Positions 15,701-33,648 of a stretch of 33,648 bases of DNA are shown here, piece after piece (the first letter of the stretch is position 1; each line of letters opens with the position of its first letter). This DNA is from Planctomycetales bacterium. GTDB lineage: Bacteria > Planctomycetota > Planctomycetia > Pirellulales > S012-138. The notes under the pieces were generated by a model, which was not told where the DNA came from, did no database searches, and was given only the letters and a program-made list of their open reading frames with translations. A program made the position numbers and the translations under genes. The stretch covers positions 1 through 33,648 of the forward strand of contig WFOE01000228.1 of assembly GCA_015488215.1 (NCBI GenBank). The letters run 5' to 3'.

Positions 15701-16531
15701 TTACTCTTGGGCCAAGGCTTGTTTGAGCACTGCGATAAGCTGAGCAATATTTTGTGGCGTTTCCACTGGAGGCCGCTCCGGACGGGGAGCTTTGCGCGTT
15801 CCCCAACAAGCCAGAAACCCCGCTGGATGAATGAACCAACCGGGCAAGTAAGGGCGGAGCTTCCGCAGGTCCGGTTCGCGGTACCCGGGTAAACGGCACA
15901 CACCCAGCCCGTGCTTGTCGTGAAACAGCACCCCTACGGGCCTTTCCCCAGCCGTCGGCACTTGAGCTTCCGGAGCCCAGTGGGGCTGATCGCTGATCTG
16001 GTCGCGTATGGCAAACACCCAAGGTCCGATACGGATCGAGGCAAGTTCCGATTCGCGGAGTCGGATCGTCAACTGTGCCAGGCCGCGGAGGATGGGCAGC
16101 ATGGTTCGCAACACGGACCGGTCCAGCGCGTCACCTTCGAGGCCTTGGGTTTCGAAATAGCAACGCGTCGCCGCTACGATCTGCGCCAGCGAAAAGTGAG
16201 GCACGGCCCCACCAAAGCGGTCCTGGGCTTCGATTTCTGCAAGCAGCGCCGAGCCCCGCAGGGCCGCGGCCTCAGGCATCTCCACCGAAGCAGCTTGAAC
16301 CGTGCCGTCGGCGCTCTGCGTTCCTTTCTGGCCCAAGGGGTGGTCCAGCACCCGAGCATCTCTCCACTCGGGTGGTAATTCCTGAGCATGGGCTGGCAAG
16401 AAACCAACTTCTTCCGGCTCCACTCCAGCGAAGGCCACGCACGCACAAGCGTCCAGATCAACGGCCGGATGAACCACGACCTTTATGGTTCGCGTGGGCT
16501 CAGACACCGAGTTGTGATCAGAGTTCCGCAT
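15701..16531 (-). CDS. DHH-superfamily phosphoesterase-like protein coupled to the CRISPR operon
   Basis: A 276-residue protein with a degenerate DHH phosphoesterase pattern. VVVHPAVDLDACACVAFAG supplies H21, D25 and D27, and VLDHPLG supplies D63-H64 with Pro in place of the second His. The C-terminus GWFIHPAGFLACWGTRKA (from residue 231) resembles the DHHA1-like end of MYG1-type members. DHH enzymes cut small phosphodiesters such as pApA and nanoRNA. A DHH/NrN enzyme degrades SAM-AMP in some type III CRISPR systems. Its ATG overlaps the stop of the Cas7-insertion gene (TAATG at 16529-16533), so translation is coupled. I infer a role in degrading the Cas10 messenger or its products. Caution: similar proteins may occur outside CRISPR loci. 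Confidence 0.55.
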   Translation of the reverse strand: MRNSDHNSVSEPTRTIKVVVHPAVDLDACACVAFAGVEPEEVGFLPAHAQELPPEWRDARVLDHPLGQKGTQSADGTVQAASVEMPEAAALRGSALLAEIEAQDRFGGAVPHFSLAQIVAATRCYFETQGLEGDALDRSVLRTMLPILRGLAQLTIRLRESELASIRIGPWVFAIRDQISDQPHWAPEAQVPTAGERPVGVLFHDKHGLGVCRLPGYREPDLRKLRPYLPGWFIHPAGFLACWGTRKAPRPERPPVETPQNIAQLIAVLKQALAQE

Positions 16532-19020
16532 TACAGCTTTTTCAACGGAAGAAGTCCACCTGGAATTGCCTTTTTGTCGCCTTTTGGCAGTTTTCTTCCT
16601 TTGGCGTGTTTTTTTCTCAATTCTTGGTGGTACTCGAAGATCGACCCGCCTATTCGTGGATAGTCGAACCTGCGGCGCCCGACGAATCGGTGAACTTCAA
16701 GCCAAGAGCAGAAAACTTCTTGGACCCACCGATGCAAGTCCCCTTGAAGTTTGTCCTTAAGGAACCTGACAAAGGCTTCCAGGCAACGGCGCTGGATGTC
16801 TTCGGAAAGCTCGGCTTCTCCTGGCAGGCCGTCCTGTTGTTTTACTAGGATGCGCCCCTGGTTCAATCTGATGGCTATGCTGCCTAATCCCAGCGGACGC
16901 CCGTGGCCGATCTTATGTGCAAGCACCGGTTGTTTCCCGGGCTGGTTCCCCAAGTAACGATTGACCCATCCCTGTAAATCCTCCGAATCTCCGGCCGCTT
17001 CCTTCATAAGCAGATCAGCAAATGTCTTCAGGTCCTCCGGACGTTGGAAAAGCACCAAGAGCAGGGCACCAAGTTCCCAAGGTTGCAGGTTGACGAACCG
17101 CAGCGTGAAGCGGAACCGGCGTCCCGGCTTGGAGATAAAACGGCCGAAAGGTGCCTGATTGCTGGTAAGGAAGATTGTGTTGCCAGACTGCCAATCGGGC
17201 TGGCTTGAATCGAGCAGCTCATAGCATTTAGGGTCCCGTGCAGCGTCGGGCTGGTGCAAATAAAACTTTCGACCGCGGAGGTTACCGGCTGATTCGTCCT
17301 TTTGAGTATCACCATAAGTGCACAAAATGCCCGCATCCTTACGTTTGCACAAGCGTTCCTTGTCCTGTGTCAAGTAGTGCTCTACGGCACTGGTTTTTGG
17401 CGCTCCCAAGGGGCGAAGGGGAACCAGGCACTCATGCTCCGGATTGAGAAACCGTTTGCCCACCGCCTCGCCTTCGGATAGCTGCTCTACAGCATGGTTC
17501 AAAGCGATCCGTCCTGCCAGTTGGGCAAAATCGGTCTGCTTCCCCCCGCAGTAGCCGATGCCGAACGAGAGCACTTCGTCCGGGGAGTAGTTTCCACCGC
17601 TAGGGCCCACATACCCGAAGAACAAGCGAGCCGCACTAAGCTGCGACGGACGGCCGGATGGATCGGATTCAAGTTCGGCTGGCCGAGGCGCAAGCAAATC
17701 CCGCAACGTGGCCAACTGATTGTACTTTTGTGCCAGGTGCTTCGCCTGATAGTCCGACTCCTGAGTGTGGTGTACGGTGTCCCGATACCGCTGGCGGTAA
17801 TAGACGTGATGGCCAAGGGTGCACAACGCCCAGGTGTTCTGCCCCTGGTATTTGAGAGGCAGCAATTCCACAACCAGAACGTCTCCTGGTAAAATCCCTC
17901 GATTACGTAGTTTTTCAAGCTGTGTTTTTATTCTCTCTACGTCCGCAGCATCGACCAATGGGTGATCCCGAAGATGTCCGTATTTTTCGTCACTTAGATG
18001 GATAAGCGTTTCGTTCCGCCAAAAATCCACTTGCGTCATTGCCAAGGGAACAATTCTTATGTACTCCTCGTAACCGATTTTTATGTGGTCTTCCTCAGGC
18101 ATTTCCAGCAACAGATAGTTATAGCCAAATGGGCCCTCGCTGATCGAATCGGGATGCTGCTCAGCGAACCGGGAAGCAAGAAGCCCTTGTGTGTCGATTC
18201 CGTTAAAATAGTAAGCAAGCACCAGCCGTTCGACATTTTCGCCCTTCCGTATTTTTCCGGTTTCATCCAGTTGCTTCTTTTCCTTGCGTGAGAGGAACGG
18301 GCGAGAGGTGGACGATGAAAATGTGTTCAGACCGTTGTAATGCTTGCGGTCCGACTGGCTGTCATCAAACTTCGGTTTCCAATCGGGAAGAAACTGTTCT
18401 ACATCCTGTGGCACGTAGTACGCGCGGTCCAACTCAAACAGAAGGAGAGTGACCGCAGAATCGGTAACACCGGTTACCAGCCCCAGGAACACGTAAGAAC
18501 GCGGCTTTGTCTTCGGTCCAGCAAACCACAAGTTGGGACGGTAAGAATGGGTCTTTTCCCACACGCGTTCCATCGGGGCCGAAAGCAGCGCTGAGAGGCT
18601 GTGACGCAGCATCCCTTTGAGTTGAGTGGCTGGGATGAGCACCGGGCCGGGTTTATTTGACTGGGAGTTTAACAACAGGGGCTCGATGATCTTCTTCTCG
18701 CTCGTTTTGGGAGTCTGCGCGGCTCTCCTTTTTCTGAAAATCTGGTACGCCGCCTCGCGCACACGCTGCAATGCCACCGGCTCCTGGAGTGCAGTGGCAT
18801 CGCCTTGCTGAGCACTTCCCAGCGCGTACTGGTAATTGCCGGGCAGCAGCGGCGTAAGCGTTTCCAATTCGCAATACAGCGTACCGGTAAACGCTTGACC
18901 CTGGCCGCCAGAGCCGGAATCGAGCCCTTGGAGCACATCGTGCGGTTGAGGTTCCGCGGTAAGGGAAACCTTCGTGTTGACCGGGACAAAGTGGTAGGGT
19001 GCAGGTTTTTGTTCTGACAT
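16531..19020 (-). CDS. cas7: large type III Cas7 protein with insertions (TIGR03986-like RAMP)
   Basis: An 829-residue RAMP protein. The N-terminal part has HDVLQGLDSGSGG and LYCELETLTPLLPGN, a Cas7 beta strand and loop. VLIPATQLKGMLRHSLSALL (about 128-147) is the conserved RAMP helix after the 'IPGSxLKG' strand. A long middle insertion (about 200-480) is charged and unique. The C-terminus carries NQAPFGRFISKPGRRFRFTL and HKIGHGRPLGLGSI (from residue 702), typical of TIGR03986. It matches the 'Cas7-insertion' subunit of III-Dv complexes, which lies along the crRNA backbone. It is fifth in the leftward operon, 18 nt after the csx19-like gene, and overlaps the start of the DHH-like gene by one base. 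Confidence 0.8.
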   Translation of the reverse strand: MSEQKPAPYHFVPVNTKVSLTAEPQPHDVLQGLDSGSGGQGQAFTGTLYCELETLTPLLPGNYQYALGSAQQGDATALQEPVALQRVREAAYQIFRKRRAAQTPKTSEKKIIEPLLLNSQSNKPGPVLIPATQLKGMLRHSLSALLSAPMERVWEKTHSYRPNLWFAGPKTKPRSYVFLGLVTGVTDSAVTLLLFELDRAYYVPQDVEQFLPDWKPKFDDSQSDRKHYNGLNTFSSSTSRPFLSRKEKKQLDETGKIRKGENVERLVLAYYFNGIDTQGLLASRFAEQHPDSISEGPFGYNYLLLEMPEEDHIKIGYEEYIRIVPLAMTQVDFWRNETLIHLSDEKYGHLRDHPLVDAADVERIKTQLEKLRNRGILPGDVLVVELLPLKYQGQNTWALCTLGHHVYYRQRYRDTVHHTQESDYQAKHLAQKYNQLATLRDLLAPRPAELESDPSGRPSQLSAARLFFGYVGPSGGNYSPDEVLSFGIGYCGGKQTDFAQLAGRIALNHAVEQLSEGEAVGKRFLNPEHECLVPLRPLGAPKTSAVEHYLTQDKERLCKRKDAGILCTYGDTQKDESAGNLRGRKFYLHQPDAARDPKCYELLDSSQPDWQSGNTIFLTSNQAPFGRFISKPGRRFRFTLRFVNLQPWELGALLLVLFQRPEDLKTFADLLMKEAAGDSEDLQGWVNRYLGNQPGKQPVLAHKIGHGRPLGLGSIAIRLNQGRILVKQQDGLPGEAELSEDIQRRCLEAFVRFLKDKLQGDLHRWVQEVFCSWLEVHRFVGRRRFDYPRIGGSIFEYHQELRKKHAKGRKLPKGDKKAIPGGLLPLKKL

Positions 19021-19038: not shown

Positions 19039-19614
19039 TTAAGGGGAGACGATTCTCCAAAAAATCCTTCGCCCGCGGCAAAAATACTGGCGCACAACGC
19101 AATCGGTGTTCTCTTTCCAGGTAGGAGGCTGCAAGCCGTAACGGTTCCAATCGCGTAGCGCCATTACCCGGCGATCGGCAAAGTAAATCGGCACGAAGGC
19201 CGATTGCTGGTCTGGCCAGGTAGTCCACTGTTGCGACGAGTTGAGCTGATCCAGAAGACCGGACGGTACAACCTTTTGTGGGGTCTGCCCCTGCGGCACT
19301 TCAGCCCAAAGCGCCCAGCGAGTCAGACCGTCGGCTGCGGCCAGTTGCAAGGCGGCATGGTTCCAGTAGAGCCGGGCTTCTTCCAAGGGAGGAAATGTTT
19401 CCGTATTCCATAGCTGTCCTCCCCAAGGCACAAAGCCGGGAAAGGTAGCGGGGGTCCATACTCTTTGAGCGGCTGGAGCTGGCTCCAGCCAGGCTGCTTT
19501 GGGCTTGAACGCCAGCAGTTGGGCCATCCACATGTGGAGCAACTGCTTCCGGACGCCGGAAAGGCATTCCAGCCGGCCGTTGAGTTTTTTCAGAGAAAGC
19601 GTGGTGGAACTCAT
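19039..19614 (-). CDS. csx19: Csx19-like small subunit
   Basis: A 191-residue protein between two Cas7 genes. EEARLYWNHAALQL resembles the 'ELRLFG...ELHLWR' region of Csx19. The closing VVRQYFCRGRRIFWRIVSP resembles its 'VRNYL' end, and RVMALRDWNRYGL lies between. Csx19 is characteristic of type III-D and a structural member of III-Dv complexes. The similarity is weak and is supported mainly by length and gene position. The ATG at 19614 is preferred to an in-frame TTG at 19629. There is no strong ribosome-binding site, so it may depend on coupling to the upstream cas7-2x gene, whose stop lies 26 nt before it. Confidence 0.5.
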   Translation of the reverse strand: MSSTTLSLKKLNGRLECLSGVRKQLLHMWMAQLLAFKPKAAWLEPAPAAQRVWTPATFPGFVPWGGQLWNTETFPPLEEARLYWNHAALQLAAADGLTRWALWAEVPQGQTPQKVVPSGLLDQLNSSQQWTTWPDQQSAFVPIYFADRRVMALRDWNRYGLQPPTWKENTDCVVRQYFCRGRRIFWRIVSP

Positions 19615-19640
19615 CTCACTACGACTCAAGATGTTCTTGC

Positions 19641-21239
19641 TTATTTTCTAGAGGTATGGAAAAACCTGTCCACATCTGAAATGGAACACACATCAAGCGA
19701 TTCGAACAAAGGCCGAAGTCTTCCAGCCTGAGTGAGGGCAGCTCGGGTCAATTGCCAGCGAATCCATCCGTGGCCTCGCCATTTTCCGCCGCCCAAGGCA
19801 CAGTACCCCAGCTCGGCCAGGCGGAGGGCCGGACGGAGTGTCGCGAACATTTGTTGCAGTTCTTCTTGAGAACAGGCTTCCAACACCAGTTGCGTCCCCA
19901 GTTGACCTTCCAGCAGCGCAACCCGATCGAACTTGCCATGTCCCCAAACCCCGCCGGCGAACTCGTCTTCGGCGTGGTGGTGGAACCAGGCAATGTGCCA
20001 TGGGTTTCCTCGGTCGTCACTGTTGAGAAGCAAAGCGTCTCGAATCAACAAACGACCGCTTTGTGTGCCTAAACCGAATACCTGAGCTATCGAATCCAGA
20101 TTCCGCCTGTCTTTACCTTCCTGGCCGGGTTGGAAATCGGGGGCGTTGGGATCTTGCACCGGTGTCCCCTGTCCTCGGTGCCAGGCCGAAGCCACATGGC
20201 GCAGCGGACCGCGAATGCCACTGCCGGGCAGGAAAGGTTCTTCCTGGTAACTTTGCGAGCGGAGCACATAGGTGGTGGCGGGAACAAAGTCCGGCTCATA
20301 ATACCGGAGAAACTCTTCCTGGTCGATTCCTTCCGGTCCGAGCAGCCCTTGTTGCAAAGCTGCCACCTGGCCAGCCAAATGGCCTCCGGCAGAGAGAGTG
20401 TTCCAGCCATAGCTTTCCGGTTCCGGACCAGTGCAGAACTTTACATCGAGAATCAAGTAGTGGAACGGATCATAAAGCGATTCGAGCTCGGGACTGAGAG
20501 TTAAAGAGTCCAATTGCGGTTGGCCCATCGGGCGTGCCAGTTTTCCAAAGCGAGCCATAGCGCTGCGGAGGCTGTCGATCTTCAGCGTATTGTCCGGCCA
20601 TTGTTGGACTACCTGGGGCCTAAGAGGAAGCCGGAAGGCACAGAACTCTTCCAGTCGCATCCATCCTAAGCCCCGGGCTGCTCCAGCTCCTAACCAGCAG
20701 CGTCCTTGGGTCCACTCTCGCAGTGCAAGCAGAACCATCTGTTCCAGTTCCGGCCCTCCGCGTGCCGTGTCGATTTCCAGCATGAACCACCAGCGAACCC
20801 CCGGCGGAACCACCTCCAAATCGTAAAGGGCTTTACGTTGCGATGCGGTACCTCCGGTGGCCTGACGAACGCCGACCCCCTGGCGCAATTGCCGCAACTG
20901 GGCAGGCGCCTTGACGGGATGAGCAGACCAGAAGCGAACGCAGGATTGCCGCAGTGTCAGCTCGCCCCGCCCCGGTGGTTGCTTTCCCTTGCCAGTGAGC
21001 GTCCAACGCAGCCATTCGTTGTGCCTCGTGGTAAACAATTTGGGGAACAGTCGGGCCACAGTTTCGACCAGGGCTCCGGCGATCCCCGAGCCGGGAATCG
21101 TCAGCCGTCCCTGGCCATCCACGGCACACTGCATATCCGGCCCGTGCCACTGAAGACTACTCCCCCCCACCAGTAAGCCGGACTGCTGGACCAGGTGTCC
21201 GCAAACCAACGTGCGATAGATTTTGTCCTGCTGGGTCAT
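19641..21239 (-). CDS. cas7-2x: tandem double-Cas7 RAMP protein (Cas7-2x)
   Basis: A 532-residue protein made of two Cas7 (Csm3-like) domains. Domain 1 (about 1-205) has GLLVGGSSLQWHGPD with D35 in the place of the Csm3 catalytic aspartate, LTIPGSGIAGALVETVARLF and the Gly-rich loop WLGAGAARGLGWMRL. Domain 2 (about 255-532) has EEPFLPGSGIRGPLRHVASA (from 333) and ends with LGYCALGGGKWRGHGWIRW. I could not place a second catalytic Asp with confidence. Cas7 subunits form the backbone over the crRNA and cut target RNA every 6 nt. The ATG at 21239 is used: GAAGG overlapping the stop codon of the upstream gene is its ribosome-binding site, with an 11-nt gap. A longer upstream start would overlap that gene heavily. 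Confidence 0.82.
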   Translation of the reverse strand: MTQQDKIYRTLVCGHLVQQSGLLVGGSSLQWHGPDMQCAVDGQGRLTIPGSGIAGALVETVARLFPKLFTTRHNEWLRWTLTGKGKQPPGRGELTLRQSCVRFWSAHPVKAPAQLRQLRQGVGVRQATGGTASQRKALYDLEVVPPGVRWWFMLEIDTARGGPELEQMVLLALREWTQGRCWLGAGAARGLGWMRLEEFCAFRLPLRPQVVQQWPDNTLKIDSLRSAMARFGKLARPMGQPQLDSLTLSPELESLYDPFHYLILDVKFCTGPEPESYGWNTLSAGGHLAGQVAALQQGLLGPEGIDQEEFLRYYEPDFVPATTYVLRSQSYQEEPFLPGSGIRGPLRHVASAWHRGQGTPVQDPNAPDFQPGQEGKDRRNLDSIAQVFGLGTQSGRLLIRDALLLNSDDRGNPWHIAWFHHHAEDEFAGGVWGHGKFDRVALLEGQLGTQLVLEACSQEELQQMFATLRPALRLAELGYCALGGGKWRGHGWIRWQLTRAALTQAGRLRPLFESLDVCSISDVDRFFHTSRK

Positions 21240-21250
21240 ACGATTCGCCT

Positions 21251-23626
21251 TCAATGAGCTCTGCCGGATTGATTTTCCTTGGCCTTCAGGGCTGCCAAGG
21301 CCATGAGAAATAGTTGTTTCTCCCGAAAGGAATGTAATTGTCGGGTTGCTTTTTGAAGGTCTTGCAACACACTTTGCCAAGGAGAGCCGGAAATCCGCCG
21401 GGAATGTTCTAGGAGTTCGTTATATAGCGCATCCAATTCTTCCTGGTTCCGACACAGCTCTGCTCGATGGCGTAAGAATTGCCATTGATTGACATTCAAG
21501 GAACCCACTTTCTTTTTGTATTGAAAAACTTGTTCCAAAACGCATTCTTTTTTCCAATCGTCTTCCTCGTCGAGCTGAGAGGATGGCTCGGACGCGGCCC
21601 CAGGCAGGTTCACCCGCCCAGCAACTTGCGGCAGTGTCTTCCACCACGAAAGTTGGTGTAGGTTCAAATTGACCGTAAAGCGGCCGAACCCTTCAGCGGT
21701 GCGTTCTCCCAGCCCCAGGCCGTTTGCCGCCACGAGGTTCAGTGCGTGGGCAAAGGAGTCCAGCGAGCTTTGTTCCCCTTGAAAGACAAACACCGACCCA
21801 CGCCGCACCGCCACCGCCATGGCCCGAGGCAATCCGCTGGCAGAGTTGAAGCCCAGGACGGGCACGGATTCCACGACGCTTAGGTCCGGAGAAAGTTTAA
21901 TCTGGTGAGGATCAATCTTTTCTAAATCCAGGTTGAGCCAGGGGTGGACTACTTGTACCTGTTCCAACATGGAGTACCAAAGTTCCGGACCGGGGCAGGT
22001 GGAATAAGTCAGCCGGGGCGTACGGCAGATTAGCTCGCTAGCCAGGGTAACGGTGAGGAATCCCGGACGGCTTTGTTGTGGAACTTGCCGCTGGGGCCGG
22101 GGCAGGGCGGCCACGTTGCGGACCACGAGGGGCTGGCCCCCGCGACCCAAACGCAAACACCAGCATGCATGTCCGTTGGAAGCTACTAGCGGAGCAAGAA
22201 GTTGCAAAAACCGACGAGCGCACTGGGCCGAAGCAAACCCGATGTGAGCCTGGAAAACCTGGTCGGGCACCAGCATTTTCTGACTGAATAGGGCATCTTC
22301 TTGACAGCCAGGAGTCCCTTGATCCACATACGATTCCTCTCCGGTCGATGGATTGGGAGCAAGTTTCCCCCGGCGGTCGGGATCAATGCGCCCGGTCGGT
22401 ACCCGGTTCCGCAGGTGGACTTGGGTTTGCGCGGTTCCGCGTACCCACCAGGAGTCGCCGATTTTAGTCGCGAGGACGTCGGGCCGCTTAATGCGTTTGG
22501 TTTTTTCCGCAGCGGGAAACCGGCCGTTCTTCGAGCCGGCTTCAATGTTCCGTGCCACCTGGTCTTGCTCTCGGGAAGCTCCCAACAGCTCGTCGGGGGC
22601 TCCGGCCGGCCAGTTGGAAGGGGGCCCCTTGCTTTTCGGTTCCCGTAACGACAGTGGGATGGGCACCACCTGGCGGTCTGCAAGCGGGATTTCGGAGGCT
22701 GGAGGCGGAACCGCCAGCCCATCACTCACCCACATCTGCTGCGGTTGGGCCAGCTCTTCGGCCAGTGTTGGATCCTGGCTGCGGATAAAGTGCAACAGTC
22801 CCCCGCGGAGCGAAGAGCCGGGAATGTAGGCCAGCGTTTCGCCAATGTTCCCTACCACCACGGCATTGGCAAAAAACAGCGGTTCTAGGTTCTTCAACTC
22901 TAAAGTAAGCACAACCGGCTCGCTGGTTCCTTCGGGAATCAGCTTTTCCACGTCGATCTGTTCCGCTTGTACCGGGCGAAATTCCTCTCCTTGAGGAAAC
23001 CGAAGCTGGATGGCTCCTGTTCCCCGTTGCCGCCGACCTCCTACGGCGCTGATTCGCTTCAAACATGCCAGCACGGCTCGCTGGATATCTGCAAGTTTTA
23101 TGCTCCCTTCCTGCCAAGGACCTCCGGAGGCCGGATCGGCTAGAATCACATAGCCGGAAAAACAAGTGCCTGCCTTGACGGTTTCTACCGTGCGGAGCGT
23201 TTTTTCCATGGGGCTGCGGCTGTGCAGTTCCCGGGCCGTAAAGCTCCAGGTGGTAATTGCCTTTTGGGTTTGCCGTGCGTCGGGGCGCAGCGAGGAGACG
23301 ATCAGCGCCCCGCGCTCCCGAGAAGCATTTTGCGAGGCCTTGTTAACCGGGTGACCCAGCAGGTAATAGAGGAGCTTTCGGTCCCGGTTGAGATTGCTTG
23401 GATTCTCCCCGGCATCGGCTCGGGCCAGCAGCCACTGCTCGCCCGCTTCGCGCATCAGCCCTCGCCAGGTGGACCACCAGATGACGGGCTTTCCGCGGTG
23501 GTCCCGGGCCACGGTGGAATCCACCATCCCCAGGCGGCCCAACCCTGAGCCGCAGGAGGTGTCTTCCAACAGCTCCACTTGGAAATCCAGCCGCCACTGA
23601 ACGGGCTGTTGGGTGGTTGCACTCAT
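21251..23626 (-). CDS. cas7-cas5-cas11: Cas7-Cas5(Csx10)-Cas11 fusion subunit
   Basis: A 791-residue fusion. Residues 1-215 are a Csm3-like Cas7: DTSCGSGLGRLGMVDSTVARD, with D36 aligning to the catalytic Asp of Csm3, WWSTWRGLMREAG, and the Gly loop SAVGGRRQRGTGAIQL. Residues about 236-690 are a Csx10-type Cas5: ETLAYIPGSSLRGGLLHFI, VPPPASEIPLADRQVVPIPL, then DALFSQKMLVPDQVFQAHI and GLGLGERTAEGFGRF. Residues about 690-791 are a charged all-helical bundle (NQWQFLRHRAELCRNQEELD), as expected for Cas11. The same order is known from the III-Dv complex of Synechocystis. Cas5 caps the crRNA 5' end, Cas11 lines the filament and Cas7 cleaves target RNA. It follows cas10 by 13 nt. Confidence 0.82.
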   Translation of the reverse strand: MSATTQQPVQWRLDFQVELLEDTSCGSGLGRLGMVDSTVARDHRGKPVIWWSTWRGLMREAGEQWLLARADAGENPSNLNRDRKLLYYLLGHPVNKASQNASRERGALIVSSLRPDARQTQKAITTWSFTARELHSRSPMEKTLRTVETVKAGTCFSGYVILADPASGGPWQEGSIKLADIQRAVLACLKRISAVGGRRQRGTGAIQLRFPQGEEFRPVQAEQIDVEKLIPEGTSEPVVLTLELKNLEPLFFANAVVVGNIGETLAYIPGSSLRGGLLHFIRSQDPTLAEELAQPQQMWVSDGLAVPPPASEIPLADRQVVPIPLSLREPKSKGPPSNWPAGAPDELLGASREQDQVARNIEAGSKNGRFPAAEKTKRIKRPDVLATKIGDSWWVRGTAQTQVHLRNRVPTGRIDPDRRGKLAPNPSTGEESYVDQGTPGCQEDALFSQKMLVPDQVFQAHIGFASAQCARRFLQLLAPLVASNGHACWCLRLGRGGQPLVVRNVAALPRPQRQVPQQSRPGFLTVTLASELICRTPRLTYSTCPGPELWYSMLEQVQVVHPWLNLDLEKIDPHQIKLSPDLSVVESVPVLGFNSASGLPRAMAVAVRRGSVFVFQGEQSSLDSFAHALNLVAANGLGLGERTAEGFGRFTVNLNLHQLSWWKTLPQVAGRVNLPGAASEPSSQLDEEDDWKKECVLEQVFQYKKKVGSLNVNQWQFLRHRAELCRNQEELDALYNELLEHSRRISGSPWQSVLQDLQKATRQLHSFREKQLFLMALAALKAKENQSGRAH

Positions 23627-23639
23627 GGTTTCTCAAACG

Positions 23640-25502
23640 TTACGGCGTGGAAGGCACCGGCTGAAGCTGAGACGGTACCGACTGGCTTTGGAGCCCTTGG
23701 AGTCGTCGTAGTTCGTACAGTTCCATCAGATCGAGCAAACAGGTGGACCAGGTATTGGCTTGGCCGGAAGCGGTCCAGAGGAGCTGTCCCTGGTCGTGGA
23801 GCCGGGCCAAATCGCTCTTTACTTGCTCGTCGGCCCACAACATGGCGGCCAGGCGCCCCTGATTGCGTCCCCGGCGGGCATATTCGGCCAGCACGTGCAG
23901 CTTGCTTCGTGGAACCCGGCCGGCCCAACGTTCGGCCATTTGGAGCAGTTTTTCCAAAGAGAGCGGGCCGTTTCCCGATTCAGTTTTCAACACGCGATAC
24001 GGCTTGCTGGTAAGCAGAATCGTCTCGATTGAGTTGCCGGAAACACGGTAGCGGCGGGAATAGTCCTGGCGGCGGACCTGGTCCACGTCTTCGTACCACG
24101 CTTCGCTGGTTACCAGCCAATCGATTGTGGAAAATTCGCCTTCGCCCCGGTCACACAAGCTGCGATGGAGCTTTTTGGCGCTGCTGGCCAGTTCTTCGGC
24201 CAGATCATGGGCACGATAAAAGGGGAACGAAGGTTTGACAATGGCCACGCCGATTCCCACGGTCAATCGGCTCGAGGCATCACTAGACTGCTCTGTTGAT
24301 TCCGCGGTGGACCTCTCTGTATTTGTGGTCGGCTGAACGCCGCCACTTTCGATGGCCCGGGCATACGCCGTGGCAAACGGTAGGGCGAAAGCCGCGTCGC
24401 ACACCATGACGAAATCATCCCCGCCGAGCATCAGCAACCGGAAAGGTGGAGCCCCCTGATTTTGCTCCAAGAAGGCGTGAAAGGTATCCTTGATCGCCTG
24501 TTGCAATGCCCGACGCGTGGCCGTGCGACATTCAAAGTAGAAGCGCTCTCCTGCCGCTTCTGCAATCAGCCCGGCAATGTTCCGGAGGTTCGCTGCGTCG
24601 GACTTCAGCGCCTGTTGCTTTGCCTGGTTGCGTAGCTGGGTTCCTCGTTGGCCCAGGCCGTTGCCGTCGGCTACCGCCACGGCCAGGTAAGAGCTTACCC
24701 GGGCCACTTCGTGGAACTCGGTGGGCCAATCTCCCTTGCCTTGTTGCGGGAGCAGGGAGTCCCGCAACAAACCGATCAGGTCGAACGACCGCCCGTTGTT
24801 GAACCGATCCGCAGCCTGCCGGCGTTGCTCCACGGCAGGGCTGATGCGTTGCAGACGCCCCAACTCTTCCTTTTCGGTATACGCCCAGTCGGTAAGTGAT
24901 ACTTCACAGGGCTGCCAGAGTGGCAATCCCCAGGCGGCTTCTTCGGCCGGAGGGGCAATCGTTTCTCGGGTAGTCTGGTGTTTGGCTTCGCTTCCTGCTT
25001 GCTCCTGCGCTTTGCAAAACTCCTCCCACCGGAAGAGACTCATGCCGATCTGCAAACCGGGCAGCTTCTCAGTGATCAGCCGCCAGGCGTCTTCGGCAAA
25101 CGCCAGGGCGTTTTCCCGGCTGGGAAACACAGCGCGAAAGTGCCCCCCGTCCCGTGCAAGAATCCCTTGACGATAGGCCGTCCGGGGATCGTCCCAATCC
25201 TGCCCCGAGCTTCCGACAGGTTCTCCATTGCTGGGCAGATACTCTTCGACGGCCCTGAGCTGCTGCTGGTCCAGAGGCAGGCACGCCCCGTGTTCGAGAG
25301 CCAAGCCCGGAAGCGTTTGTCTGTCTTTTACAAATTGTCGGCTTCCTCCTTGGTCGCACAGTTTCCCTCGGAGCACTTCGCCAAGGAGAACATTGGCTCC
25401 GATGATCGACTTGAGCTCCGGAACGGAAAATAAAAAAGTCTGCACCCGCTGGAAGTCGATTGCCACCACGTAAGGCTCTGCGCATGCATCCCCTTGGGGC
25501 AT
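23640..25502 (-). CDS. cas10: Cas10, type III signature protein with an active-looking palm
   Basis: A 620-residue large subunit of the interference complex. The N-terminus YVVAIDFQRVQTFLFSVPEL and IIGANVLLGEVL is the typical start of a Cas10 without an HD nuclease domain; no HD pair is present. Palm 1 has VAVADGNGLG with D279. Palm 2 has LMLGGDDFVMVC with GGDD at 360-363, so synthesis of cyclic oligoadenylate or a related messenger is plausible. A Ser/Thr-rich insertion lies at about 388-411. The C-terminal helices (about 500-600) fit domain D4. The ATG at 25502 has AGGGAG at 25511-25516, 8 nt upstream. It is the first gene of the six-gene leftward operon; the promoter must lie in 25503-25858. 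Confidence 0.92.
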   Translation of the reverse strand: MPQGDACAEPYVVAIDFQRVQTFLFSVPELKSIIGANVLLGEVLRGKLCDQGGSRQFVKDRQTLPGLALEHGACLPLDQQQLRAVEEYLPSNGEPVGSSGQDWDDPRTAYRQGILARDGGHFRAVFPSRENALAFAEDAWRLITEKLPGLQIGMSLFRWEEFCKAQEQAGSEAKHQTTRETIAPPAEEAAWGLPLWQPCEVSLTDWAYTEKEELGRLQRISPAVEQRRQAADRFNNGRSFDLIGLLRDSLLPQQGKGDWPTEFHEVARVSSYLAVAVADGNGLGQRGTQLRNQAKQQALKSDAANLRNIAGLIAEAAGERFYFECRTATRRALQQAIKDTFHAFLEQNQGAPPFRLLMLGGDDFVMVCDAAFALPFATAYARAIESGGVQPTTNTERSTAESTEQSSDASSRLTVGIGVAIVKPSFPFYRAHDLAEELASSAKKLHRSLCDRGEGEFSTIDWLVTSEAWYEDVDQVRRQDYSRRYRVSGNSIETILLTSKPYRVLKTESGNGPLSLEKLLQMAERWAGRVPRSKLHVLAEYARRGRNQGRLAAMLWADEQVKSDLARLHDQGQLLWTASGQANTWSTCLLDLMELYELRRLQGLQSQSVPSQLQPVPSTP

Positions 25503-27020: not shown

Positions 27021-28253
27021 TTAGCGGACGATCGATCCGGCTACGGCTTCGCCGGCCTTCTCTCCGGCCCAGGCTCCACCGATGCCTCCCACGATCGCCC
27101 CAACGCCCCCGCCAATGGCCGTACCAATAGGACCGAAGAAGGAACCGATCGCAGCTCCGGTGACCCCACCGGCCTTGGCTCCCGCCCAGGCTCCGGCGGC
27201 TCCCCCGGCGGCTCGACCGGCTGTTTGCGCGTGGCGCTGCAGGCGCTGCTTGTGGGTGATGCGGCCCTCGCGGTAGACCTTTTCGGTGTTGTACACCTCA
27301 AGGCCCCCCGTACCGATCTCCACAGCAACGCCTACAGGACCTGCCACACGCTCAAGCGCTCGGCCCAATTGCTTGGCCATCCGGCCTGCCCGACCGAGCA
27401 CTCCCAGGGCATCATCAGCAGCGCTGCTTACCCGGGGACGAACCCGCCCCGCCCTGGCCGAAGCGGTTCCTTTGACACGCGGACGCTTCGGCATGGGCGA
27501 TGCGGTAGCGCGGACCTTGGCAGAACCGGAGACCGAAGCGTGCCGCCCCAGGTGCTTGCTTGCCCGGGACCAGCACCTGCGGACGTGTTTGGACACAACC
27601 TTCTCCAGGTGCCGTTTCTTAGGCAACGGAGCACCACAGGGCAGCTTCGACATCACGCGCCCTTGCTCCAAGGCCTGTTTGAGCCGAGCATACTCCGGGG
27701 ACAGTGGGATGCCTCGGTAACGGGACAAGTACACCTTGCGTTTAAGTTCCCTCTCCAAGGCACGGTAAGTTTCTGCGTCGGTCAGAAAGTGCATCCCGCG
27801 ATACTTGGGGTCACTCAACGCGTTGATAATCGTCTTGGGACTGCCACTTTTGGCCTGAATCCGACGCAGCACCTTGCCGGTGGAAGTATCCACTTCCAGG
27901 ATGTCCGCCGCATGGTGCGGCTGCCCCAAAACGCTGGTGGGAACCCAGCGGGTTGCCTGGCCGGTGGCCTTCATCCGGGTGTTGACGGTGTGGGAGGCCA
28001 CCGCTTCCAAGGCTTTGCCCCGACGCGAATTGAGCGTCTCCTTCAGGTACTTCTCAGCCGAACCGTACCGCTCCACGGCCTTGGGGCTTACCCGGCCTGC
28101 GGTCCGGTCCAGCAAATCCGGAAGGGAGTAGATTTCCCCCGGAACGCGAACATGCTGGCCCACAGCCAGCGCAGGTTGGGCCACCGTTTGGGCCGAAACG
28201 TTGCCGGTAAAGGCAACCAAGGCAATCAACAACGAAAGAACGAGCGTCTTCAT
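27021..28253 (-). CDS. secreted protein with nuclease-like motif and C-terminal glycine zipper
   Basis: A 410-residue protein, not recognised as a named family. Residues 1-21 are a signal peptide ending VSA-Q. Residues about 70-170 form a compact domain with GQPHHAADILEVD and VLRRIQAKSG (D117, Q133, K135), then YRGMHFLTDAETYRAL. This resembles PD-(D/E)XK-like nucleases of polymorphic toxins in which QxK replaces ExK. Residues about 180-275 are very basic and low in structure (KRPRVKGTASARAGRVRPRV). Residues 344-409 are a Gly/Ala zipper such as GGVTGAAIGSFFGPIGTAIG, which could insert in membranes. The ATG at 28253 is firm: AAGGAG at 28260-28265 with 6 nt spacing. It is preceded by three micropeptide genes and closed by a clear terminator. 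A toxin or effector role is inference only. Confidence 0.6.
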   Translation of the reverse strand: MKTLVLSLLIALVAFTGNVSAQTVAQPALAVGQHVRVPGEIYSLPDLLDRTAGRVSPKAVERYGSAEKYLKETLNSRRGKALEAVASHTVNTRMKATGQATRWVPTSVLGQPHHAADILEVDTSTGKVLRRIQAKSGSPKTIINALSDPKYRGMHFLTDAETYRALERELKRKVYLSRYRGIPLSPEYARLKQALEQGRVMSKLPCGAPLPKKRHLEKVVSKHVRRCWSRASKHLGRHASVSGSAKVRATASPMPKRPRVKGTASARAGRVRPRVSSAADDALGVLGRAGRMAKQLGRALERVAGPVGVAVEIGTGGLEVYNTEKVYREGRITHKQRLQRHAQTAGRAAGGAAGAWAGAKAGGVTGAAIGSFFGPIGTAIGGGVGAIVGGIGGAWAGEKAGEAVAGSIVR

Positions 28254-28299
28254 TTGCTTCTCCTTTCTTTTGCTAGTAGACACGGGAGCCGGATTCGTG

Positions 28300-28344
28300 A
28301 AAAAGCGGCCCGAGCCGCCGGCTCCCGACGGGGCGACTCGGGCC
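28300..28344 (-). terminator. terminator or attenuator between micropeptide A and the glycine-zipper gene
   Basis: Arms GGCCCGAG (28307-28314) and CTCGGGCC (28337-28344) form an 8-bp GC stem. On the minus strand GC then TTTTT follow (A run 28300-28304). It lies between micropeptide A (ends 28380) and the start of the larger gene (28253). It could end most micropeptide transcripts and allow only partial read-through, making peptides more abundant than the large protein. Confidence 0.65.
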
Positions 28345-28379
28345 ACAAGGCACAACACGTAGTGGGGGGCAGGGGGCGT

Positions 28380-28772: not shown

Positions 28773-28796
28773 TAGGCAACAATTGCAGACCTATTC
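28773..28796. repeat. short interspersed repeat, copy 1
   Basis: TAGGCAAC followed by the 16-nt core AATTGCAGACCTATTC (28781-28796). The same core occurs exactly at 28881-28896 and as a variant at 29146-29161. It lies upstream of micropeptide B on its strand. Function is unknown; promoter, operator or recombination site are possible. Confidence 0.65.
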
Positions 28797-28872
28797 CGCA
28801 ACACAGGCCCACGGATGAGCCATGCTTCGCCGCCTCGCCTCACAGCGAGGCTTTGCGGGTAGGTCTATTCAA

Positions 28873-28896
28873 TAGGCGCCAATTGCAGACCTATTC
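28873..28896. repeat. short interspersed repeat, copy 2
   Basis: TAGGCGCC plus the exact core AATTGCAGACCTATTC. It is preceded by AGGTCT at 28861, inverted relative to AGACCT in the core, giving a palindromic frame around the site. Confidence 0.65.
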
Positions 28897-28906
28897 GGCG
28901 ACCACG

Positions 28907-29055: not shown

Positions 29056-29141
29056 TGTCTCGCCCTCCTTTTGCGGAGAAATGCTGCTGGTTCCCAGGCT
29101 CCACTGCCCAGGCTCCCAAACCAGCAGCTTCACTAAATAAG

Positions 29142-29161
29142 CGCCAATTGCAGACCCAATC
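29142..29161. repeat. short interspersed repeat, copy 3 (variant)
   Basis: CGCC followed by the core variant AATTGCAGACCCAATC (29146-29161). It lies 91 nt upstream of micropeptide C on its strand, supporting a regulatory role. Confidence 0.55.
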
Positions 29162-29356
29162 CGGTGGTCACGAAACACGAAAACAGCGCTACGACGAAAA
29201 GCGACTCCCCGGCCTCGGGGAAATCCCGTGTCCGCCAACCTCCGAATGCCCAAAGAAAACGGGAAGAACGACAAAAATGCGCAAGATGGAAAACGCAGAA
29301 AGCCCCTTCCGGCTCAGCGCCGTCCCGGCCCCAGCCGCCTCCCCTTCAGAGGGGGA

Positions 29357-30952
29357 TCAACCGGTGTGCCGCCGGACGAACTCCTCCAGTTTTTCCCGGA
29401 GCTGGTCCACCGGTACGATGTCCACTCCTTCTTCTTCCAACCGCTCTAGCGTATTCCACCAGTCCGACGGCTTGGCAAACTTCTTGGCCCGAAGCGACTT
29501 CTCATCGTGTGCTTTGAGCTGGCGAATGTCTTCTTCGGTCAGCGGGAACACGATGGAAAACTCGCTGTAAGCCCCGGTGTAGTCCTCCAGTGCCTTGACC
29601 CGCGATTTGATGTCCTTGAGAAAAGACCCCTGCGCTTGGTTCCCAGAGTGATAGTGCGTTTTACATTCCAGGTGCAGCAAGTCCCCGGTCCGAAGCAGCA
29701 CAAGCACATCCAGCTCCATCACCACACTTGTCTCGGAAACCACCTCGACCCGGGAAGCCACCTCTTGCACTTTCTCTCGCAACGCCGCCTCTTGGCGAAC
29801 CAGATGTTCCACTTCGCACGCAACCCATTGCTCAAAAAGGTCTGCAAGCGAGTTTTCTTCCAACAAGGGGACCAATTCGGAGGAGGCCTCCCGAGCTACC
29901 AACAGATGAATCGGTTCGCCACAGATCAATTGGCGCGCTTCCTGGTAAAGCCAATCGTCGGTTTCGCGGGCGTGGGAACGCCACTCCAATATCAATCTTT
30001 TTTTCGAGAAAATTGCTTCCAAACGCTGATGGGCAGCCATGCGGATTTCCTGTTTGAGCAAAGGCTGCACATGTTCTTTCCACGCGGGCAAAAAGGTTAC
30101 GGCATCCTGGGCACATTGGAGCAACGCAGCGACAAGACGCTCTTCATATCCGTCGCGGAGCTGAGTTGCTTCGGCGGCTACACGGGCCTTCCTTCGAGGC
30201 AGCAAAGGAGAAAACAGCTTCGAAAAATACTCTTCGACTCGTTTCCGAAGCAATGGTTCGAGTGCGGTTACCTGCTGTCCCCAATCATCCCGGCGCTGCT
30301 GGGCCCGCTCGGAACCAGAGTGCAGCCAGGACCGGAACTCCGCATTGGTGCAAATCGACTCGCGGAACGCCTCCCGCTGCCGATCCGTCAGTCGAAGCCG
30401 GTCATTCCACTTTGGTTCCACCCCATACGGCTTCAACCGCTGTGCAAGCCAGCTCCCCACATCCTCGCCAAAAGGGAACTCAACCGCCAGCCAGCTCTGA
30501 CGAAACCTGCCGTCCAACGGCATCAGCTCCACTCGGGATGGGGGCGACGTGCAATACACGACCGAAACCCGGTCGAACAACTTGCGGGCCACCTCCACCA
30601 GCAGGACACGGTCCAATCCCCGCCCGGTGGTTACATCCACCGCCACGCCCCTCGGCTGGGCCCGGCTGTTCCCTGCTAGCTTCTGCGCCAATTCCTCCGG
30701 AACACCATGCTCCGGAGAAGGAAGCGAATACCATTCCACAGCCGTGTTGGCACACAGCCGCGTAACCTGCCGAGCGCGATCTTCCCAGCCTTTCCGTCTG
30801 GCCTCCGGCGTGACAAACAACACCAGCCGCCCTGGTCGGAGCGTGCCCAACAATTTACCCAGCACCAAGGGGTCCTTGGAAACTTGGGCAATCAACAGCT
30901 CGAAATAAGAACAAAACCCTTTCACCAGCAATTTATCTGAATTGCTTTCCAC
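29357..30952 (-). CDS. CARF-domain PD-(D/E)XK nuclease (Card1/Can2-like type III effector)
   Basis: A 531-residue protein. The N-terminal domain (about 1-150) is Rossmann-like with LVLFVTPEARRKG and GVAVDVTTGRGLDRVLLVEV, in the place where CARF proteins carry 'TGGTK'. A helical linker (about 180-370) follows. The C-terminal nuclease core is SLADLFEQWVACEVEHL, then ELDVLVLLRTGDLLHLECKT with E413, D415, E429 and K431, matching DUF1887/Card1. Card1 and Can2 bind cyclic tetra-adenylate and then cut DNA and RNA. With a GGDD Cas10 in the same island, this is the likely effector. The GTG at 30952 lies 15 nt after AAGGAG, a long spacing, so the start is uncertain. It is divergent from the CRISPR array. 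Confidence 0.75.
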   Translation of the reverse strand: MESNSDKLLVKGFCSYFELLIAQVSKDPLVLGKLLGTLRPGRLVLFVTPEARRKGWEDRARQVTRLCANTAVEWYSLPSPEHGVPEELAQKLAGNSRAQPRGVAVDVTTGRGLDRVLLVEVARKLFDRVSVVYCTSPPSRVELMPLDGRFRQSWLAVEFPFGEDVGSWLAQRLKPYGVEPKWNDRLRLTDRQREAFRESICTNAEFRSWLHSGSERAQQRRDDWGQQVTALEPLLRKRVEEYFSKLFSPLLPRRKARVAAEATQLRDGYEERLVAALLQCAQDAVTFLPAWKEHVQPLLKQEIRMAAHQRLEAIFSKKRLILEWRSHARETDDWLYQEARQLICGEPIHLLVAREASSELVPLLEENSLADLFEQWVACEVEHLVRQEAALREKVQEVASRVEVVSETSVVMELDVLVLLRTGDLLHLECKTHYHSGNQAQGSFLKDIKSRVKALEDYTGAYSEFSIVFPLTEEDIRQLKAHDEKSLRAKKFAKPSDWWNTLERLEEEGVDIVPVDQLREKLEEFVRRHTG

Positions 30953-31174: not shown

Positions 31175-33648
31175 GTCTCAGCGACCTCTGGTGGCCCTAA
31201 GGGCATTGAGACACGAGCGGGTAGAAGTGCAGTTGATCCCCTTGTTCACGCCGGTTTCAGCGACCTCTGGTGGCCCTAAGGGCATTGAGACGTCCGCCTC
31301 GAAACTGGAACACCAGCACCACGCCTCCTACCGCGTTTCAGCGACCTCTGGTGGCCCTAAGGGCATTGAGACGTCGTACGTGGTGGCCATCACGCACGAC
31401 CCGGCCCTTCCCCTCGGTTTCAGCGACCTCTGGTGGCCCTAAGGGCATTGAGACGGTCCGGACGGTGAAGTACAACCGCCGATCCCGGGTTTCAGCGACC
31501 TCTGGTGGCCCTAAGGGCATTGAGACCGGGGCCAGCCGGTCTGGTGGTAGGCCTATTTGGTAGTGCCAGTTTCAGCGACCTCTGGTGGCCCTAAGGGCAT
31601 TGAGACGGCGTCCCCAGGTGGGGACGCCGAGCTTACTTCCCGCCGTTTCAGCGACCTCTGGTGGCCCTAAGGGCATTGAGACTACGATCACGCCCCCTCG
31701 GGGGCGTGATCTTTTGGGGTTCTCGTTTCAGCGACCTCTGGTGGCCCTAAGGGCATTGAGACCATCCAAAAGGAAGGTGATTTTCACCTTTCCTGACGAG
31801 TGGAGTTTCAGCGACCTCTGGTGGCCCTAAGGGCATTGAGACTGGTGGATCACTGCAATGTTGCAGTGATCCACCAAGAGTCCGGGTTTCAGCGACCTCT
31901 GGTGGCCCTAAGGGCATTGAGACTCGTAGGATGCTTGCATTAGAGAAAGGAGTTATTTTCCGTTTCAGCGACCTCTGGTGGCCCTAAGGGCATTGAGACG
32001 AAGTAATGCCGATGGATCCTAGCATGATGGGAGGGTTTCAGCGACCTCTGGTGGCCCTAAGGGCATTGAGACCCACCACTCGATCCAGGGCGCAGGCAAC
32101 CACTTAGGGTTGCCGTTTCAGCGACCTCTGGTGGCCCTAAGGGCATTGAGACCTTTCGATTCCCAGACCAATGGGAAGTCGATTTTGGTAAGTGTTTCAG
32201 CGACCTCTGGTGGCCCTAAGGGCATTGAGACCCATCGTTATCGCGTCTGGTGAAGCCGGTAACGATGGCCACGGGTTTCAGCGACCTCTGGTGGCCCTTA
32301 GGGCATTGAGACTTCGGTTCAAAGCCACTCCGGATCAGGTGTTCGAGTTTCAGCGACCTCTGGTGGCCCTAAGGGCATTGAGACGAGGAACCGCTGATGC
32401 CAGCGGACATCATCGTACTCTTTGGCCACGTTTCAGCGACCTCTGGTGGCCCTAAGGGCATTGAGACTCGGCGGTTGTACGTGGACGGCAACCTCTGTGA
32501 CGGTTTCAGCGACCTCTGGTGGCCCTAAGGGCATTGAGACAGGTGGAGGGGATAGATATGAGGGTGTCTTACGGTTACGTTTCAGCGACCTCTGGTGGCC
32601 CTAAGGGCATTGAGACAAGGGGGGAAGCATCTGAAACGCTTCCATGATGTCATCGTTTCAGCGACCTCTGGTGGCCCTAAGGGCATTGAGACATGGCGTG
32701 GGAGGCGAATACCGGCCGGGCATGCTGGAAAAGGTTTCAGCGACCTCTGGTGGCCCTAAGGGCATTGAGACCGCGCAAGCGGGCCACCGTACGACGATCC
32801 TGACCCGGTGTTTCAGCGACCTCTGGTGGCCCTAAGGGCATTGAGACGCGGTCTTTTGCTCCTGGCCGCCACCGCTGTCGCCCCCGCCGGAAGGGTTTCA
32901 GCGACCTCTGGTGGCCCTAAGGGCATTGAGACTTCCACAGGCCGTCCTGGCTGCCGGAAGTCGCCCGGGCCTCGTTTCAGCGACCTCTGGTGGCCCTAAG
33001 GGCATTGAGACATGCCCGTGCGTAATATTCGTTACAACCGGCGCTCGCGCGTTTCAGCGACCTCTGGTGGCCCTAAGGGCATTGAGACTGCAACATCGCA
33101 GCCATCGACGGGGAAACCGGCCAGGTAATGTTTCAGCGACCTCTGGTGGCCCTAAGGGCATTGAGACTTCATGCGGGTGGAAATCTTAGCAAGATAATAG
33201 GTTTCGTTTCAGCGACCTCTGGTGGCCCTAAGGGCATTGAGACGAAGCCCCTTATCGGTTGAGCCTGCCCCCGGTATCCGGGTTTCAGCGACCTCTGGTG
33301 GCCCTAAGGGCATTGAGACCTGTTCCTTGGGTTGGGAGGAGCCGGTTTTTGTGTACTCCGTTTCAGCGACCTCTGGTGGCCCTAAGGGCATTGAGACCCA
33401 GCGTCAAAGCGGGAGGTGATATTCCGCTTTCCGAACGTTTCAGCGACCTCTGGTGGCCCTAAGGGCATTGAGACAACCTCTGTGATGAGGTTGCCATCCA
33501 AAACATTCGGGAGGCGTTTCAGCGACCTCTGGTGGCCCTAAGGGCATTGAGACAAGGTCGTCTTCCGATTTCCCAATCGATGGACAGTTTACTTGTTTCA
33601 GCGACCTCTGGTGGCCCTAAGGGCATTGAGACCCGTCCTGTTTGAAAA
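31175..33648. CRISPR. CRISPR array, 32 repeats of 38 nt, truncated at the window end
   Basis: Repeats start GTTTCAGCGACC and end GGGCATTGAGAC (plus strand). There are 32 copies from 31175-31212 to 33595-33632, then 16 nt of a further spacer. The 31 complete spacers are 34-47 nt, the variable length typical of type III. Repeats are identical except the first (31175, T to C at position 3) and the fifteenth (32275-32312, A to T in the central loop). Both repeat ends can give a plausible crRNA handle: ATTGAGAC after hairpin GCCC-TAA-GGGC on the plus strand, or GCTGAAAC after GGCC-ACCAGA-GGTC on the minus strand. The decayed left repeat and the coding sense of spacers favour minus-strand transcription. 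Short open frames in the array are repeat artefacts. Confidence 0.98.

Follow-up and report, generated by a model that had tools for sequence, protein, structure and literature searches.

Hairpins and repeatedly sampled coding segments in the spacers of a type III-D CRISPR array from a Planctomycetales bacterium

The CRISPR array at the end of this contig raises the question of why an immune memory should hold several slightly different versions of the same short protein-coding segments. An earlier note, made from the letters alone, had described groups of spacers as coding variants that differ largely at wobble positions, and had taken them for strong repeated sampling of a single virus family. 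The array lies in a window (the whole stretch of DNA that was analysed, 33,648 nt) and is considered here together with its continuation on another contig, its cas genes, its closest relatives, and the possible sources of its spacers.

Coding variants among the spacers

31175–33648, minus strand (the probable direction of reading): CRISPR array, 32 repeats of 38 nt and 31 complete spacers within the window

The array starts at 31175, runs past the end of the window and contig, and continues in contig C169 (L034) of the same genome, where 12 further complete spacers with the identical repeat bring the total to 43. In the plus orientation of the window, the 38-nt repeat (GTTTCAGCGACCTCTGGTGGCCCTAAGGGCATTGAGAC) has a GCCC-TAA-GGGC stem and then an 8-nt ATTGAGAC end, which we take to resemble the type III repeats of Thermus in plus orientation. 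The repeat at 31175, the window-side terminus of the array, is a mutated variant (GTCTCAGC). A scan of GTDB contigs for the repeat returned three single chance matches and nothing else, and Rfam gave no match on the array. Other repeats, of 30–65 nt around GTCTGCAATTGGCGCCTA, are dispersed on both contigs flanking the CRISPR region (L034 12971–14020; window 28773–28802, 28873–28902, and 29138–29167).

The spacers that were proposed to be coding variants are as follows.

31455–31488, plus strand: spacer 4, group 1, VRTVKYNRRSR
33012–33050, plus strand: spacer 24, group 1, MPVRNIRYNRRSR (VRNIRYNRRSR), starting with ATG
31763–31804, plus strand: spacer 8, group 2, SKRKVIFTFPDEW, hairpin p 0.016
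33398–33436, plus strand: spacer 29, group 2, PASKREVIFRFPN, hairpin p 0.038
33554–33594, plus strand: spacer 31, group 2, KVVFRFPNRWTVY
32153–32193, plus strand: spacer 13, group 2, FRFPDQWEVDFGK, hairpin p 0.02–0.035
32468–32502, plus strand: spacer 17, group 3, RRLYVDGNLCD
33475–33515, plus strand: spacer 30, group 3, NLCDEVAIQNIRE, hairpin from nt 1

All 903 pairs of the 43 spacers were compared in 6 × 6 frames with both orientations allowed, and the six highest-scoring pairs were exactly those of groups 1 and 2, all in plus/plus orientation; the best pair scored 46 and the sixth-best 37, against maxima of 43 and 32, respectively, in 120 dinucleotide shuffles. Nucleotide identity within the two groups is 60–73%, and the differences at codon positions 1/2/3 fall mostly on the third position, both in group 1 (2/2/9 for spacers 4 and 24) and in group 2 (2/0/5 for 31 and 29, 2/2/5 for 13 and 31, 2/1/5 for 8 and 13, and 4/2/6 for 8 and 31), the sole pair lacking a third-position majority being spacers 8 and 29 (4/1/4). 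The description given in the earlier note thus largely stands: its coordinates are correct within one base (the exact bounds of spacers 30 and 31 are those listed above), the final six codons of the group 1 spacers differ at third positions only and both spacers end at the same codon, the four group 2 peptides tile a single segment, and wobble differences dominate overall, albeit more weakly between spacers 8 and 29. Its view that the spacers are coding sequence from several related genomes is likewise borne out by this level of identity and by the synonymous character of the divergence.

Group 3 gave no signal by protein similarity in the all-pairs comparison, and its membership follows instead from an end overlap: spacer 17 finishes with the 11 nt (AACCTCTGTGA) with which spacer 30 begins, and 1.25% of shuffles contain at least two 11-mers shared on the same strand. 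In addition, the GGC that precedes the overlap in spacer 17 and the GCC that follows it in spacer 30 lengthen the hairpin of spacer 30 to 9 bp (GGCAACCTC-TGTGAY-GAGGTTGCC). Because the overlap and the flanking bases extend one and the same hairpin, the two spacers probably sample one segment, and this part of the earlier proposal is retained as probable. The nine readable coding spacers (groups 1–3 and spacer 2, described below) all read in the plus direction; judging the coding strand from codon usage across the whole spacer set was uninformative (21 of 43). Spacers 4 (31455–31488) and 17 (32468–32502) also have a 13-nt stretch in common, in opposite orientation (GTACAACCGCCGA, p ~0.02).

Hairpins in this array and in related arrays

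The spacers have a second property, absent from the earlier note, that offers a reason for the resampling of the same segments: many of them fold. Relative to their own dinucleotide shuffles, the spacers have a mean folding z of −0.9 (host DNA windows, −0.07), and 12 of the 43 fold at p<0.05. Perfect stems of at least 6 bp are found in 15 of 43 spacers where 4.6 are expected, the longest measuring 15, 11, 11, 9, and 9 bp. The stems are also placed one-sidedly: six spacers have the base of the stem at nt 1–2 of the plus 5′ edge against 0.7 expected, in a test that was designed after seeing the data of this array and whose sole independent replication is the pair of related arrays described below, and stems at the 3′ edge (plus) show no excess. 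Apart from the group members, the clearest cases are as follows.

31843–31885, plus strand: spacer 9, perfect 15-bp hairpin from nt 1
31683–31724, plus strand: spacer 7, 11-bp hairpin followed by TTTT, terminator-like
31607–31644, plus strand: spacer 6, 9-bp hairpin from nt 1
32232–32274, plus strand: spacer 14, 9-bp stem from nt 1

Folding and coding are intertwined, as the coding spacers (groups 1–3 and spacer 2) fold more than synonymous recodings of themselves (combined p 1.5e-4); therefore, the wobble choices that separate the variants are partly hairpin-making ones. Taken individually, spacers 2, 13, 24, and 31 are not significantly more folded than their recodings. An origin of the hairpins in fold-back synthesis was considered and rejected, given that spacers 17 and 30 independently show one hairpin native to the source.

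The closest Cas1 relatives with arrays, G294 (type III-D) and G128, belong to the same Cas1 clade and repeat the pattern, with stems of at least 5 bp in 17 of 26 spacers (7.6 expected) and six edge stems (1.5 expected) of the same polarity as in this array. In contrast, neither a stem excess nor edge polarity is seen in 15 other arrays of the order, with 120 spacers among them (Fisher p 9e-5 for stems of at least 8 bp). Two further relatives, G054 and G084, have no clear hairpin excess in a small sample of 8 spacers. The G294 array (L085) also holds variant coding spacers of its own (SSDWSLVWDK, ASDWVMVWDQ, WVLVW, and IIWDQS), all in one orientation and with a best pair score of 44 against a null maximum of 39; the segment is unrelated to groups 1–3, and thus this genome is not alone in resampling a single coding segment.

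The type III-D locus and the direction of its array

The cas genes that accompany the array in the window, together with an ancillary nuclease, are listed below.

23640–25502, minus strand: Cas10, type III-D-like (PADLOC Cas10 E 1e-70, Cas10d E 2e-53)
21251–23626, minus strand: fused RAMP protein with Cas7-like and Csx10/Cas5 III-D parts
19641–21380, minus strand: double Cas7 (Csx7/Csm3-like, III-D)
19039–19629, minus strand: Csx19 (E 4e-11)
16531–19020, minus strand: TIGR03986 type III RAMP (Cas7 III-D), above cut-off
29357–30952, minus strand: CARF-PDDEXK ancillary nuclease (Can/Card-like), a weak match

Among type III-D models, Cas5_IIId (E 1e-21) and Cas7_IIId (E 1e-29) were matched, the matches to the Csx10 and Csx7 models falling below their cut-offs, and cas2 and cas1 lie on C169, ~300 bp from the other end of the array. 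No reverse transcriptase (RT) fused to or adjoining Cas1 was found at the CRISPR locus, and the sole RT in the assembly, which is 96.5% complete, is retron-like and lies on another contig (L035, G000 C297, 5605–6816, minus strand). The system behind the array is accordingly of type III-D and has no CRISPR-linked RT, and as far as this assembly shows it is not one of the RNA-acquiring RT-Cas1 type III systems. Those systems (Marinomonas III-B and Vibrio III-D) resemble the present one in their type III effector and coding targets but carry an RT with Cas1, whereas none is fused or beside it here.

Several neighbouring genes merit record. A 445-aa protein with a glycine-rich C-terminus (window 27021–28358, minus strand), located between cas10 and the CARF nuclease, has no family match. 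On the contig of cas1 and cas2, a 1340-aa single-chain RNA-polymerase-like protein (L034, G000 C169, 5953–9975, minus strand) matches Rpb2 domain 6 (E 2e-21) and Rpb1 domain 2 (E 5e-10) and carries the motifs GDKLANRHGHKG and ADFDGDQ; no close relative was found among 296 other genomes of the order, where the matches look like ordinary RpoB, and phages and plasmids yielded weak RpoB-like matches. Near this gene lies an RtcR/PspF-like CARF-AAA protein (L034 10954–12924, minus strand; PADLOC CARF_AAA_HTH E 1e-63) with a sigma-54 activator domain, possibly a transcription switch under the control of a CRISPR second messenger.

The layout of cas1, ~300 bp, and array is the same in G294 and G128, whose repeats end in ATTGAAAC in the cas1 direction, and mutated repeats are common at leader-distal array ends. 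Given this shared cas1-leader-array geometry and the variant terminal repeat at 31175, the array is probably transcribed from the minus strand of the window, in which case the nine readable coding spacers would give antisense crRNAs. The repeat itself, with its stem and 8-nt end, fits the plus direction and argues for transcription from the plus strand, under which the crRNAs would be sense; no sigma-70 promoter was found by scanning either flank of the array. An antisense crRNA is needed by a type III system, as interference must pair with the transcript.

Sources of the spacers and competing explanations

One spacer leads to a source.

31292–31334, plus strand: spacer 2, SASKLEHQHHASYR, matching a conserved tail-region protein of tailed prophages (G002 C410, G001 C120, G044 C52)

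Spacer 2 matches a prophage gene of a same-genus genome over 28 nt at 89%; the gene, which encodes a 174-aa protein, lies between those for the major tail protein and for the tape measure. Homologs from the genus and the order also carry the motif A-x-I-x-A-x-K-L-Q-H-Q-H, and the target family is also present in IMG/VR. The prophage call relies on terminase, head, and tail genes, and the element in G002 C410 (L109) encodes a terminase, a portal, a protease-capsid fusion, a tail tube, and a tape measure. As judged from this match, at least part of the array appears to record tailed DNA phages. When all 43 spacers were compared with tail loci from IMG/VR (15 related ones) and with 12 prophage loci, spacer 2 alone matched.

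For groups 1–3, searches of phage records, plasmids, IMG/VR patterns, and about 300 genomes of the order yielded no protospacer. Scanning IMG/VR with degenerate codons gave chance matches only or none for each of the three groups, phage and plasmid records contained no convincing match to the peptides or the DNA, order-wide peptide searches with groups 2 and 3 returned the array itself as the sole match, and the spacer peptides matched nothing in PHROGs or Pfam. Short segments have truly been resampled, then, while their attribution to one virus family is not supported as it stands, no source having been found for the groups. The earlier note left the choice between DNA and RNA open; DNA is the default, because there is no RT at the locus and spacer 2 matches tailed DNA prophages.

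Slightly favoured over all other accounts taken together, and the simplest to cover all of these observations, is a hairpin-biased, RT-free type III acquisition from phage DNA, coupled with selection for antisense crRNAs. Under this reading, Cas1-Cas2 would take spacers from the DNA of a diverse phage set and would preferentially capture stretches with a hairpin-forming strand, often with one spacer end placed where the stem begins; the flush position of stems on one side hints that a prespacer may be trimmed at one end up to the hairpin. Conserved coding segments that form hairpins across related phages would be captured repeatedly as wobble variants, and selection would then retain those spacers that give crRNAs antisense to the coding strand, owing to the pairing that type III interference requires. 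We infer that the hairpin acts at acquisition, not through selection, and that the substrate of acquisition is DNA. Against this account it counts that the structure of the source is not directly visible where groups 1–3 have no protospacer, that selection or target choice (terminators or structured genomes) could also yield a hairpin excess, and that, as noted above, four coding spacers and the 8 spacers of two relatives do not stand out.

The components of such a process have precedents. In the RT-free type III-A system of Streptococcus thermophilus, ssDNA hairpins, attenuators, and terminators are preferred during acquisition, and the spacers show a coding-strand bias with enrichment just after start codons (Zhang 2021, as covered in the review PMC9048733). 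The present system shares the lack of an RT, the hairpin enrichment, and the coding-strand bias, and its spacer 24 begins at an ATG; nevertheless, the streptococcal data concern laboratory acquisition from plasmids and host DNA, whereas natural type III-D arrays with phage-like coding targets are at issue here, and the one-sided flush stem at the spacer edge is not described in that review (PMC9048733). In Thermus thermophilus, an antisense strand bias of type III spacers is produced by selection, and protective spacers lie in a narrow hot region, antisense to transcripts (PMC7515739), much as proposed for this array; the study deals with single phages rather than with variants from several related genomes, and hairpins go unmentioned in it.

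A plainer account, which we consider rather unlikely, is repeated exposure of the host to many related phages from one or a few tailed families, the sampled segments being their most conserved genes and the hairpins incidental or phage terminators. It draws on the conserved tail-region gene matched by spacer 2, on the terminator-like spacer 7, and on the resemblance of the G294 variants to a motif carried by IMG/VR viral proteins (DADWVFVWDTAGAISKKVS). Four of 43 spacers within one 60-nt segment are, however, hard to explain if they were drawn from a genome of tens of kb that had no hotspot, and exposure leaves unexplained the hairpin excess, its one-sided edge position, its recurrence in relatives, its absence from the 15 other arrays of the same order, and the folding of the coding spacers beyond that of their recodings.

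Less probable by far is a structured RNA replicon (an RNA phage or an Obelisk-like, rod-like circular RNA) reverse-transcribed by an enzyme encoded away from the locus. An RNA genome would fit the strong folding, the small size and overlap of the segments, the rapid synonymous divergence, and the coding in one sense; the retron-like RT encoded elsewhere could be recruited to the argument, and both hot-spring RNA replicons and spacers of other bacteria against Obelisks have been reported (PMC13096302, PMC10847044). Yet no RT is present at the CRISPR locus, spacer 2 comes from a DNA prophage family, the complementarity between spacers that a rod would entail is not in excess, and no RNA virus was matched, albeit in collections thin in RNA viruses; the specific claim that what the array records is a family of structured RNA replicons of its host, captured via an RNA-to-DNA route without RT-Cas1 is more doubtful still. 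Least credible is an origin in repeated host or plasmid genes, for although mobile elements often contain hairpins and repeated gene families, the array itself was the only significant match in the host genome (in a search that scored the best candidates only) and no plasmid matched.

Hairpin-biased acquisition from DNA, joined to antisense selection, is therefore the reading carried forward. As a type III-D memory the array is ordinary, apart from how unusually clearly it shows the footprint of hairpins and resampling, and we read its hairpins as the natural footprint of a preference known from the laboratory; the locus suggests that DNA folding guides what immune systems of this type store. 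If hairpins do steer acquisition, natural arrays would show how type III prespacers are made, without experiment, and would reveal which prespacer end is trimmed to the stem. Such steering would also provide a reason for the repeated sampling by type III arrays of the same gene segments from diverse phages, a claim that can be checked immediately in thousands of public type III arrays.
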